Shown here piece after piece: positions 22,923 to 28,937 of a DNA stretch of 64,000 nt (positions are counted from its first letter, which is position 1; each line of letters begins with the position of its first letter). Source of the stretch: Leuconostoc lactis KCTC 3528 = DSM 20202 (GTDB lineage: Bacteria > Bacillota > Bacilli > Lactobacillales > Lactobacillaceae); contig NZ_BMWM01000006.1 in NCBI RefSeq assembly GCF_014651235.1, forward strand, positions 1 to 64,000, read 5' to 3'. A model generated the notes under the pieces. That model made no database searches, was not told where the DNA came from, and worked only from the letters and a program-made list of their open reading frames with translations. Position numbers and translations under genes: made by a program.

Positions 22923-22986
22923 AGGAGGCAATTGTAGCGTATTGCGGAACGACCGTTCAAGATAATGCCCTACAACTATTACTATG
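22923..22986 (+). promoter_or_regulatory. Split ribosome-binding site with intervening hairpin
   Basis: AGGAGG lies at 22923-22928 but the ATG of the next gene is at 22984, 55 nt away, with no other Shine-Dalgarno. The bases between form a long hairpin: TTGTAG (22932-22937) pairs with CTACAA (22970-22975), continues inward by GTATT(G)/(T)AATGC with G-U pairs, and is capped by GAAC-GACC-GTTC (22947-22958). If folded, AGGAGG and ATG are separated by 11 unpaired nt. The GAAC-N4-GTTC core also resembles a Gram-positive LexA box, an alternative explanation. Confidence 0.6.
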
Positions 22987-23649
22987 TCAATTAACGTCTA
23001 TATTGTCCGTCACGGCGAAACTTACTTCAACTTCTTACACCGTTTTCAAGGTTGGTCTGATGCACCCCTCACCCCAAAAGGGATCGAACATGGCTTGAAT
23101 GCCGGTAAGCGACTGGCTGACATTCATTTTGATGGCGCTTACTCATCTGATTTGACTCGTGCCATTCATACCGCACGTTACATTTTGAAAAATAATACGG
23201 CGGATTCACCAGAGGAACCGACGCAACTCTTTGATTTCCGTGAACAGTTCTTTGGGTCGTTTGAAGGCATTAACGGTGAAACAGTGACCACTACGCTCAC
23301 TGCTTTCAAAGACACACCCTTTGAGACTTACACAAACTTGATTACCATCTACGGCATGGCTGATGCGATGAACACTATCCGTCAAGCAGATCCTTATCAC
23401 TTCGCCGAAGACGACGAACAATGGTGGACGCGCGTTTCACGTGGGTTTAATGATATTCGCTTCCGTCATAAAGACGGCGATAACGTCCTCATCGTGTCAC
23501 ACGGCACAACAATTCGTGGGATTGCCGAAAAGTTTGGCCGCCATGATTTCGCCAGTGAACCCGTTAAAAACGGGGCGGTCATGCAGCTCGAACTTGACCC
23601 CCATGACGCCAAGATCGTCCGTTTTAACGATGATACGACGGTCTTTTAA
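22984..23649 (+). CDS. Histidine phosphatase family protein (PhoE/GpmB-like)
   Basis: 221 aa branch-1 histidine phosphatase. The phosphohistidine motif is YIVRHGETYFN, the second His is in IVSHGTTIRG, and FQGWSDAPLTPKG matches small-molecule phosphatases rather than true glycolytic mutases. The substrate cannot be told from sequence. The start is fixed by homology (MSINVYIVRHG), although the local ribosome site is unusual (see the split site just upstream). No promoter-free overlap with the preceding gene; a terminator separates them. Confidence 0.88.
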   Translation: MSINVYIVRHGETYFNFLHRFQGWSDAPLTPKGIEHGLNAGKRLADIHFDGAYSSDLTRAIHTARYILKNNTADSPEEPTQLFDFREQFFGSFEGINGETVTTTLTAFKDTPFETYTNLITIYGMADAMNTIRQADPYHFAEDDEQWWTRVSRGFNDIRFRHKDGDNVLIVSHGTTIRGIAEKFGRHDFASEPVKNGAVMQLELDPHDAKIVRFNDDTTVF

Positions 23650-23678
23650 TAGACAGTTTCGCAAAAAACTGTTACACT
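23650..23678 (+). promoter_or_regulatory. hflX promoter
   Basis: TAGACA (23650-23655), 17-bp spacer, TACACT (23673-23678), starting right after the stop of the preceding gene. Predicted leader about 163 nt. Confidence 0.65.
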
Positions 23679-23684
23679 ATCAGT

Positions 23685-23847
23685 AGTCTAAATAAAGGAA
23701 GTGCAATCAATTGTCAAACGAATTTTAAGATCCCGTAGATAAGAGTAGAGTCTCTATTTTTATGTGCACATCTTGAGATTGGTCAGCAATTTTGCCCTCG
23801 ACACGTAAAATGCCCCCAGTCTCGCTATTCTCTGGAGGTATTTTTTT
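23685..23847 (+). promoter_or_regulatory. Attenuator-like hflX leader: upstream ORF plus SD-sequestering terminator hairpin
   Basis: After AAAGGAA an upstream frame opens: GTG at 23701 gives a 13-residue basic peptide (MQSIVKRILRSRR, stop 23742), or TTG at 23711 gives MSNEF. A weak stem AGAG/CTCT followed by five T (23742-23761) comes next. At the end, 23807-23819 pairs with 23832-23844 (13 of 14 positions, GCCCCCAG with CTGGAGGT). This hides the hflX SD GGAGGT and is followed by a T7 tract, so it can act as a terminator and a translation lock. The ATG is 3 nt beyond the stem. Confidence 0.6.
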
Positions 23848-25146
23848 ATGACTGAACAACACATTAACGCCCAAGACCCACGTAAGGTCTTTCTGGTTGG
23901 CCTCACAACGAGCCAAGCGAATTTAACCTATGAACTAGAAGAGCTTGCCAATCTGGCAAAAGCCAATAATTTGGTACCAGTGGAAACGTTTACCCAAAAG
24001 CTGGAACGGCCCAACCCTGCTACTTACTTTGGTAAGGGAAAAGTGGAAGAATTGGCGGAAGCCGCCAAGACTTACGAAGTGGATATGATCGTCGCCAACG
24101 ATGAGTTATCCCCATCACAGATTCGTAACTTAGAAAAGTTAACCAACACAACGGTGCTGGATCGCACGGGGTTGATCTTAGATATTTTCGCCCAACGCGC
24201 CCAAACTAAGGAAGCCAAGCTACAAGTCCAGTTGGCCCGCTTGCAATACCAGCTCCCCCGCTTGCGCACAAGTATGTCTGTCAGTCTTGATCAGCAAACT
24301 GGTGCGGGTGGCGGTGGCTTTACGTCACGTGGTTCGGGTGAAACGAAACTCGAAGAATCACGCCGTCGCATCACGTCACAAATGGTCCGTATTCGCCAGG
24401 AACTCGCCGAGTTATCCAAAGGGACGTCAACACGTTCAGCTAAGCGGACAACCAACGAATTGGCCAATGTGGCCTTGGTGGGTTATACCAACGCTGGTAA
24501 GTCCACGTTGATGAACCGCCTGCTCGCTCGCTTTGGCGTCGGTGCGGACACGGACGACACCAAGCAAGTCTTGGAAAAAGATATGTTGTTTGCCACGTTA
24601 ACGACCACCGTTCGTCAATTGACTTTACCAGATAAGAAGCAATTCTTACTGAGTGATACGGTCGGGTTCGTCTCAAAGTTACCACACAACCTCGTATCTG
24701 CCTTTAAATCAACCTTGCAAGAAGCCGCGAATGCTGATTTGCTGCTGCAAATTGTGGACGTGTCAGATGAACACTACAAAGACATGATGGCCACCACGGA
24801 AAAGACCTTGGCCGAAGTCGGCGTAACCGACGTACCAATGATTACTGTCTACAATAAGGCTGATCGCACCGAACTCGTCTACCCTGACGTGTCTGGCGAA
24901 AATACGATTACCATCTCAGCGCTAGACCCTGCCTCACAAGATGCGTTAATTGATTTAATCAAGAAGCAAATCTTCAACGACGTCCAAGAAGTCACGCTCC
25001 ACATCCCATTTGACCAAGGCGCTGTGCAAGCCAAGCTCGCCGCTAAGCATACCTTTAGCAAAGAGGACTATGATGAGACCGGCACGCTGATTACCGTTGA
25101 ATTGTCCGAGTTGGAACGCAAGTTGTACGCGGATTATATTGTCTAG
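23848..25146 (+). CDS. hflX: Ribosome-splitting GTPase HflX
   Basis: 432 aa. The N-terminal HflX domain binds the large subunit and includes a glycine-rich segment (GAGGGGFTSRGSGETKLE) before the coiled-coil. The G domain has G1 GYTNAGKST, G3 DTVGF and G4 NKAD. HflX dissociates stalled 70S ribosomes after heat or antibiotic stress and rescues hibernating ribosomes. GGAGGT precedes the ATG but is buried in a leader hairpin, so expression is probably conditional. It ends at a strong terminator and is monocistronic. Confidence 0.96.
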   Translation: MTEQHINAQDPRKVFLVGLTTSQANLTYELEELANLAKANNLVPVETFTQKLERPNPATYFGKGKVEELAEAAKTYEVDMIVANDELSPSQIRNLEKLTNTTVLDRTGLILDIFAQRAQTKEAKLQVQLARLQYQLPRLRTSMSVSLDQQTGAGGGGFTSRGSGETKLEESRRRITSQMVRIRQELAELSKGTSTRSAKRTTNELANVALVGYTNAGKSTLMNRLLARFGVGADTDDTKQVLEKDMLFATLTTTVRQLTLPDKKQFLLSDTVGFVSKLPHNLVSAFKSTLQEAANADLLLQIVDVSDEHYKDMMATTEKTLAEVGVTDVPMITVYNKADRTELVYPDVSGENTITISALDPASQDALIDLIKKQIFNDVQEVTLHIPFDQGAVQAKLAAKHTFSKEDYDETGTLITVELSELERKLYADYIV

Positions 25147-25149
25147 TAA

Positions 25150-25186
25150 AAATCCCCTCACACGGATTAACGTGTGAGGGGATTTT
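25150..25186 (+). terminator. hflX terminator
   Basis: ATCCCCTCACACG-GATTAA-CGTGTGAGGGGAT then TTTTATATTT; a 13-bp perfect stem. Confidence 0.93.
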
Positions 25187-25689: not shown

Positions 25690-27597
25690 TCAATTTTGAA
25701 TTTTTAACTTTCCAGATCTATACATCTCCATTAGCTGATCTGCTGATAGATTTGATTCATCGTCATCAGTAAACCGACTAAAAATAAATTCTACAATTCT
25801 ATTCGCTGCTTTTTCAGTGGCGGCTTCAATATCACCTTCGGCCCATACATTTATATTGGCTTTAGAAATTGATTGTGCAATTGGATATTTTGAATTTTTA
25901 TACCCATCTTCTAAGTTAGTTTTACTTCCATGAATTTTTTCGTCCAACATGGCATTACCAATTTTTCGATTAAGACTTGATTCGAGTAAAATTTTATTAC
26001 CTAATGAATCTTTATATTCTTCAAAATCGTTTTCACTACTGAATCCAGCTTGCGTTCTAATAGTAGATAGGTCTTTACCACTTGCTGGCAAAATATGCTC
26101 AATATCTGGTTCTTTATCAAATAATAAGAAGTCTTGCGACAAACCATGTTCTTTAGCAAATAAATATTCATTCAGTGTCACTAAGGCACTATCAGCAGAT
26201 GAATCAATCAAAATCGATTTAATCGACTCTGGGTCAAAATTATTTGCAATATGTTTTTCAAAATCACGAATGATATCTTCTGTCGCAACACCTTTACCTA
26301 GTTTCATATTTTCGGCAAACAAAAACACTTTGAAGTTCTTTGACGAGTATCCCGCTTCACTCAGATTTAATAATACAAATAATTTCAATAACGTAAGAGC
26401 GTAATTCAATTTTGTCGTATTACTATCACTTTGTTTCAAGTATAGGTATGGGGCGTAAAACAATTTGAAATTACTGTTAAATTTAAACAATAACTTCAAA
26501 GCATACTGATTATCTTTATCCTTATCACTGAGAATCCAGTTATTAGCGATCTTACTTAACGCCGAAACAAATGCATCACCATTTTTGAGCAATTCTGGAT
26601 GGATTTCGGTAAAAAACTTACGTACTCCTGGCATAGTTGTTGAAGCTTCTTGCAACTCGGATCGTTTAAGATACATGTATTGATTCAATACTTCATCTAT
26701 ATTTACAACCTTTTGTCTTGCCAATGAATCAGTTAAATCCATCAACTGTTTCCATTGATCAACAAACTTTTCACGGTTATCTTCGTCATAATAACTATAA
26801 AGTTTTGCAGAAAAAATGTCTGCATCAGCCAAAGGCAACCCAGTAGAATTTAAGGAATTGAATATATCAATTGCTTCTTCATTATCAAAAGACGTAATTG
26901 TAATTAACTGTGCTTTATTCAAAACTGCCTTTGCAAATGAATTCACTTCTGTAACTTCTAACTCAGCAAGCTTATTTACAAAGAATTTAAAGTTATTAAA
27001 AAATTTAGTATGTCGATTATCTCCACGCTTATACTTAATGTCAGCAACATTCTTTTCAATATCCGACACGTCTGTTCCACGTAAAATTATCTCAAGTTCA
27101 TCTTTATAAGCTTCATTAATTGATGTATTTCGATATTTTGATTCTAATGTATCAAATCCTATCTCGCCATCCACAACATCATATACATTTTCTTCATCCA
27201 CATGATATAAACTTTGTATGATTTCCTTTTTACTTGCACCCAGTTGACGCTTCAAGTTTCGGTAGTCTTCATCATCAGATATTTTATTTAGTAGTTCAGT
27301 TATTCTAATTATTAATGCCTTTAGCAAAATAATTAGCGTGGTGGTTCGTTGTTGCCCATCAATCAAAATTAAATCTTCTCGTCAAACTGTTGCATTAAGA
27401 ATCACTGAGCCCAGGAAATAATTTTCTTTATTATCTTCTGTTGAAAAATCAAGTAGATCTTGCCACAGACGATCAACTTGACCATTAATATCCCAATTAT
27501 ATGCACGTTGATATTCTGGAACAACAAATTTTCCTTCAACTTGTTGAAAAAACTCACTAATTCTCTTCAGATCTGAATCAATCTCTTTGCTTCTCAT
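25690..27597 (-). pseudogene. DUF262/DUF1524 (GmrSD-like type IV restriction) protein, interrupted by TGA
   Basis: One frame of 635 codons from ATG 27597 to the stop at 25690, broken by a single in-frame TGA at 27382-27384 (codon 72), between GSVILNATV and REDLILIDGQQRTTTL. The DUF262 domain has VPEYQRAYNWD and the nucleotide-binding IDGQQRTTTL; the C-terminal DUF1524 nuclease has IEHILPAS and GNKILLESSLNRKIGN. Such proteins cleave modified phage DNA. The lower GC than its neighbours and flanking repeats suggest acquisition. A TTG just after the TGA has no ribosome site, so a full product is unlikely unless the stop is read through. Confidence 0.88.
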
Positions 27598-28834: not shown

Positions 28835-28937
28835 GTGTGCGCTCCTTTGATTAGTTGTTTACAAACGCGGCCGTTCCTTGCCACGCAATTACAATAAGTT
28901 TCCGGGGCTTATCGTGAGGTAAACAATACCGTGTATT
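28835..28937 (-). promoter_or_regulatory. Candidate L13 leader (ribosomal protein autoregulation)
   Basis: About 100 nt between transcription start and rplM. The minus strand has GCGTGG-CAAGGAACGG-CCGCGT near the 3' end, which can pair GCG/CGC-type arms and resembles the known Firmicutes L13 leader. I identify it by position and overall pattern, not by a covariance search. Confidence 0.5.

Follow-up and report, generated by a model that had tools for sequence, protein, structure and literature searches.

The attenuator that precedes hflXr in Listeria, rli80, is described as a uORF-driven element with a terminator, an antiterminator and an anti-antiterminator, the logic of which was shown by experiment (PMC6310831), and the uORFC-6-1 motif is reported before hflX mainly in Bacillales (PMC8632094). 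The same logic is described as shown by experiment for the ARE-ABCF attenuators of vmlR and cplR, in which a tiny uORF (MIN in vmlR, MRI in cplR) lies inside the anti-antiterminator hairpin (PMC9226507, PMC10201436). In cplR, the terminator is reported to end at the start codon and to hide the Shine–Dalgarno sequence (SD) (PMC10201436). The ToiL uORF of Escherichia coli topAI, which belongs to another gene and another organism, is likewise described as reporting ribosome stalling by several drug classes (PMC12121999).

A stretch of 64,000 nucleotides from Leuconostoc lactis (hereafter, the window) was analysed around its hflX gene, which is preceded by a leader of ~163 nt that is probably a ribosome-mediated (ribosome-occupancy) attenuator. 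As in rli80 and uORFC-6-1, the element would be driven by a uORF before hflX, and as in rli80, the protein is of the HflXr type (PMC6310831, PMC8632094). Their uORFs are reported to hold an RLR motif and, in Listeria, to span 14 residues (PMC6310831, PMC8632094), whereas the Leuconostoc frame has five codons from TTG and no RLR, and no sequence relation was noticed. The vmlR and cplR leaders control ABC-F proteins through three codons (PMC9226507, PMC10201436), in contrast to HflX (TIGR03156) and five codons in Leuconostoc; with five codons in 18/18 Leuconostoc species, the frame lies outside the three to four codons of short-uORF ARE-ABCF leaders, although its placement inside the anti-antiterminator resembles theirs. 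What is new is, therefore, the five-codon, RLR-free uORF in Leuconostoc, as the attenuator logic itself was already known before hflX. Among the literature matches listed, as judged from titles and the beginnings of abstracts, none concerned a Leuconostoc or Weissella hflX leader.

Architecture and conservation of the hflX leader

The features of the locus are collected in Table 1. The promoter-like site lies immediately 3' of the stop codon of a histidine-phosphatase-family gene (22984–23649), and the leader RNA is expected to start near 23685. As the scan found seven sites of this quality in 3 kb where 4.4 are expected by chance, the score by itself is no proof of a promoter; similar hexamers were seen by eye at the same place across the 18 aligned species. 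In the subgroup L013–L018, the DNA 5' of the promoter differs from that in L001–L012 and no end of a phosphatase gene was seen, while promoter and leader are retained (by eye). The hairpin downstream of the gene is probably the end of the hflX transcript, as judged from its predicted fold.

Table 1. Positions of the features of the hflX locus in the window
Feature	Positions	Strand	Evidence
Promoter-like site TAGACA-17-TACACT, with TG 5' of −10	23650–23678	+	9/12 matches, scan
uORF Shine–Dalgarno AAAGGAA	23694–23700	+	Sequence; SD-like block before TTG in 18/18
Helix P0, 5' arm GCAA, between uORF SD and TTG	23703–23706	+	Double changes in 4/4 pairs
Candidate uORF TTG TCA AAC GAA TTT TAA (MSNEF)	23711–23728	+	Start, length, Phe and TAA kept in 18/18
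Segment 1, AAUUUUAAGAU; uORF end and anti-antiterminator 5' arm	23721–23731	+	Core TTTTAAGAT identical in 18/18
Apical hairpin within 1:2	23735–23767	+	Double changes in 6/14 pairs
Segment 2, AUCUUGAGAUUGG	23770–23782	+	Core TCTTGAGATTGGT 99.1% identical, 153 pairs
Helix P0, 3' arm UUGC	23792–23795	+	Covariation
Terminator 5' arm, AAAAUGCCCCCAG	23807–23819	+	Fold, covariation
Segment 3, CCAGUCUC	23816–23823	+	98.6% identical, 153 pairs; 2:3 pairs in every cell
Segment 4	23832–23847	+	Terminator 3' arm 23832–23844, GGAGG 23834–23838, U7 23841–23847
hflX, HflXr-type, 432 residues	23848–25146	+	TIGR03156, 402.9 bits; tree
Hairpin 3' of hflX	25149–25186	+	Fold, −29.2 kcal/mol

Segment 2 can pair either with segment 1, via 23770–23780, or with segment 3, via 23775–23782: the 1:2 anti-antiterminator joins AAUUUUAAGAU with AUCUUGAGAUU, and the 2:3 antiterminator joins GAGAUUGG with CCAGUCUC. 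Segment 3, in turn, enters the antiterminator or, through its CCAG and the 5' neighbours thereof, pairs with segment 4 as the terminator. The resulting 3:4 hairpin (23807–23844) buries the hflX SD GGAGG, overlaps U7 and abuts the ATG at 23848; it was missing from the list of a simple terminator scan because its 12-nt loop exceeds the limit of that scan. Folding and conservation predict mutually exclusive terminator, antiterminator and anti-antiterminator helices.

In the proposed mechanism, RNA polymerase would start near 23685 and a ribosome would load on the uORF of five codons, the final ones of which, with the stop, constitute segment 1. If the ribosome cleared the frame fast, or never loaded, 1:2 would pair, P0 would close around the uORF start and 3:4 would form; transcription would then end in U7, immediately ahead of the hflX start codon, and any read-through RNA would have its SD buried (OFF state). 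A ribosome lingering on the uORF would mask segment 1 and allow 2:3 to pair before segment 4 is made, so that the terminator would fail, the hflX SD would be free and HflX would be made (ON state).

A preliminary description of this DNA, made from sequence, had already placed hflX behind an attenuator-like leader with a promoter, short uORFs, a weak U-tailed stem and a strong SD-burying hairpin ending in U7. All of these were found again, including the two uORFs (five residues from TTG at 23711–23728, and 13 residues from GTG at 23701–23742) and the weak stem, which corresponds to the apical hairpin at 23735–23767. The antiterminator and anti-antiterminator pairings had been missed and were found here. 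The attenuator-type reading was supported by a search for chains of three overlapping helices, in which none of 1000 shuffles matched the chain of the window, and by the presence of the leader in 18/18 congeners. This search used purpose-made scoring with the 9-nt U-rich end held fixed in the shuffles; the window leader scored above 1000/1000 of them, and a chain of any kind was present in 66. The minimum free energy (MFE) of the leader was −45.4 kcal/mol, whereas shuffled sequences averaged −29.4 (z = −4.4; 0/200 shuffles as low). The terminator hairpin by itself reached z = −4.05 in a 42-nt span and z = −2.28 in a 60-nt span.

In 153 pairwise comparisons, the cores of segments 1, 2, 3 and 4 were on average 100, 99.1, 98.6 and 98.1% identical, respectively, in contrast to 36.9% at hflX fourfold sites, 37.8% in the terminator loop and 58.2% in the apical hairpin. 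Covariation was assessed on 17 distinct sequences and the 41 pairs of the OFF fold, with 500 shuffles; as this fold was derived from the fold of the window and the RNAalifold consensus, the following counts lean towards it. Paired cells amounted to 93.0% (89.8% in shuffles), pairs with double changes to 11 (7.2) and cells with double changes to 34 (14.3), each of which was reached by 0/500 shuffles, while the number of pair types was unremarkable (369/500 shuffles as high). Double changes occurred in 4/4 pairs of P0, 6/14 of the apical hairpin and 1/12 of the terminator. Helices 1:2 and 2:3 had none in the 17 distinct sequences because they are nearly free of sequence changes, which puts them beyond the reach of a covariation test. 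Helix 1:2 is without its last pair in 8/17 distinct sequences, and one further pair is missing in L015–L017.

The pattern TTG-x-x-x-TTT-TAA, of exactly five codons and with an SD-like block ahead, was present in 18/18 aligned Leuconostoc species. It encodes ten distinct peptides (MSNEF, MLIKF, MLTKF, MLNKF, MSKKF, MLNEF, MLNRF, MLSEF, MLNNF and MVNKF) with the consensus M-[L/S/V]-x-x-F-stop, and none of the ten, from the 18 species, contains an RLR or +x+ motif. The TTG is invariant, as against a mean identity of 71% for codons 2–4; the conservation of the Phe and stop codons, which pairing constrains as well, constitutes no independent evidence of translation. In the RNAalifold consensus the TTG is unpaired. 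It is paired in the window's own MFE structure, and the bases involved are not retained in every species (by eye). We infer that the five-codon frame is translated. A 19th Leuconostoc draft genome (G018), in which hflX is cut by a contig end and which is outside the 18-species alignment, appears from the position of the gene to correspond to the L. inhae leader (L038), which has the same uORF.

Ribosome occupancy, candidate signals and rival explanations

The ribosome was modelled as a footprint of 30 nt around the P site in which no base could pair, with the transcript cut just 3' of segment 3. Without a ribosome, the mean probability of 2:3 over the 18 species was 0.14, the exceptions being L008 (0.92) and L004 (0.54); placing one on codon 1, 3 or 5 raised the mean to 0.99–1.00, with values of at least 0.98 in 18/18 species. 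When the footprint was slid along the leader, the mean probability of 2:3 stayed at 0.96 or above while the P site lay between −9 and +30, counted from the TTG; the P sites within the uORF (0 to +12) belong to this zone. The probability fell gradually on both sides, to 0.73–0.80 at −21 to −12 and 0.08 at −30 upstream, and to 0.54–0.65 at +36 to +42 downstream. In the full-length RNA without a ribosome, the terminator had a mean probability of 0.94. When codon 1, 3 or 5 of the full-length RNA was occupied, 2:3 averaged 0.58, 0.48 and 0.36, and the terminator was the more probable of the two in 7, 9 and 10 of 18 species, respectively; in those species, only a kinetic switch would work.

As to the signal, a drug that acts early would be the likeliest because the frame has only five codons and is without an RLR-type arrest motif; macrolides usually need a longer nascent chain. 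We consider it an evenly balanced proposition that the inducer is a drug holding ribosomes at or soon after initiation, of the lincosamide, pleuromutilin or streptogramin A class. The short uORFs of ARE-ABCF genes are described as being thought to be stalled by drugs acting at this stage (PMC10201436). It is unlikely, though conceivable, that the leader works without drugs as a homeostat of ribosome release, in which any ribosome lingering on the uORF would switch on the ribosome-splitting HflX. Such a ribosome could be initiating, stalled or terminated and awaiting splitting, as the frame is short and its stop lies deep in the anti-antiterminator. If true, this would constitute a feedback loop on HflX activity itself.

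Transcription would probably terminate at U7 in the cell; a U tract follows the 3:4 stem in 18/18 alignments. The same uORF switch could instead act mainly on translation, with 3:4 hiding the hflX SD and little RNA ending at U7. The position of GGAGG inside the hairpin fits this scheme, as does cplR, in which induction is reported to need uORF stalling and not premature termination, and in which the terminator also hides the SD (PMC10201436). We nevertheless judge it improbable, given that a hairpin that only masks an SD needs no U tract.

Structured leaders that operate without translation exist, and the nearly invariant segment 2 might be taken as part of a binding site for a ligand or protein, with the uORF being accidental. 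The TTG start, its SD and the five-codon length are, however, retained in 18/18 species, and the invariance of segment 2 is accounted for by its having to pair with both segments 1 and 3. Moreover, a search with the Rfam 15 families yielded no match at gathering score in the leader of the window or in those of L001, L002, L009 and L013. A binding leader is thus very unlikely.

Finally, the preliminary description had proposed the Arg-rich, 13-residue GTG peptide as the sensor, with its RSR as a +x+ macrolide-arrest motif, and had asked whether the uORF is conserved: the TTG frame is (18/18) and the GTG frame is not (8/18, with GTA in 10/18). In favour of the GTG peptide, its frame exists in the window and in the two closest relatives, and I-L-R is read in it in 11/18 species, segment 1 having fixed those bases. 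Macrolide sensing through this peptide can nevertheless practically be set aside, as the frame closes after 2–6 codons in 5/18 species (overall range, 2 to 24 codons), starts approximately one base after the SD and holds RSR in L001–L003 only, and the conserved TTG peptide is without +x+.

HflX proteins and RLR-type uORFs at orthologous genes

HflX was present in 60/60 genomes searched. In each Leuconostoc genome, the second match was only a weak GTPase-domain match, so the genus seems to have a single copy; the window protein is 98% identical to that of G002. A tree was computed from 34 proteins, with L027 left out of 35 rows as no frame was found. A branch with support 100/100 separated a 22-row side, comprising PDB 8a57_D, the 18 rows of Lactobacillaceae and a single copy per genome from three genomes of another family (f8), from 11 canonical-looking rows of other families, including the second copy of G050, together with PDB 8vkw_4. 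We take 8a57_D to be the Listeria HflXr. By sequence, the Leuconostoc protein falls in the HflXr clade, which upholds the link with Listeria-type HflX drawn in the preliminary description. A loop region spans 44–48 residues on the 8a57_D side; on the other side, the 11 canonical rows have 42 residues and 8vkw_4 has 50. A longer loop in the helical domain is described as marking HflXr (PMC12493154).

The three f8 genomes have an RLR uORF before the HflXr-type gene (MIWIRLRSGNGSCN, MIWIRLRTKQIFATN and MGYTRLRYSRACN), and the same scan found none before the canonical copy of G050. Their RLR leaders (L118, L120, L121) had no Rfam match at gathering score. Within Lactobacillaceae, an RxR-uORF scan of 42 upstream regions detected MRLR or MRIR uORFs at two g15 and two g12 loci; in L029, L030, L114 and L115, from two genera, the frames before hflX are MRLRTSSLLSIH, MRIRRDQLK, MRLRKVAP and MRLRLVSLLPLQ. 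Three further matches were found, one in L086 and two in L107, of which one holds RLR. Orthologous genes elsewhere are thus preceded by RLR-type uORFs, and in Leuconostoc a different uORF takes that position. This food genus would control its single HflX gene by a strict switch as well, with its own five-codon frame as the uORF. If confirmed, this would mean that the sensing frame at orthologous genes is replaceable while the switch logic is unchanged, and the swap perhaps alters which ribosome problem is sensed. The Leuconostoc leader would be a compact and harmless system for asking what five codons sense, and whether the supply of HflX is under the control of HflX itself.

Distribution of the leader and neighbouring elements

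A pattern scan of named genomes with two invariant leader blocks returned 16 stretches, of which 11 were from Leuconostoc (carnosum, citreum, gelidum, litchii, inhae, pseudomesenteroides, palmae, rapi, falkenbergense, holzapfelii and miyukkimchii) and five were unrelated (Daviesbacteria, a yak-gut bacterium, Pseudanabaena, Anderseniella and Gillisia) and judged by eye to be chance matches. With a covariance model, this leader was the single match in its own genome at E < 0.01; a second leader was not found there, the two weaker matches (E up to 5) being the leader's own opposite strand (E = 0.015) and a single further site (E = 0.09). Across 301 genomes of the family, the model matched 25 genomes at E ≤ 0.1, 15 of them Leuconostoc (E ≤ 1e-19), and among the Leuconostoc genomes listed none was without a match. 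Eleven loci in ten genomes outside the genus, at E from 0.003 to 0.1, were discarded as tblastn detected no hflX in any of these ~3-kb loci.

Outside the genus, 40 upstream regions from 116 hflX genes of the family were inspected by eye, and none had a leader of the Leuconostoc type. In the near genera g7 and g56, hflX starts within about 20 nt of the upstream frame. A crude terminator scan of 40 such regions, of 116, reported terminator-like hairpins less than 75 nt before hflX in some of them, for instance at −40 (L115), −57 (L117) and −74 (L113), and at −23 or −24 in three of the four g2 loci L083–L086; attenuators of another design may therefore occur there. In the nearest genus (G025, L078), two competing attenuator-like hairpins of unrelated sequence precede hflX (366–462); the uORF is unclear there and the frame is broken at the hflX start.

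Right after hflX, a frame on the opposite strand (25690–27366) has GmrSD_N and GmrSD_C domains, characteristic of the type IV restriction endonuclease family. Its GmrSD_N match covers the profile only from position 62 of 199 onwards, and the frame may thus be without its start. Further downstream, an ordinary ribosomal-protein leader, L13_leader (RF00555, 57.9 bits), lies at 28852–28930 on the minus strand, upstream of the rplM-side operon, and is also present in L009.
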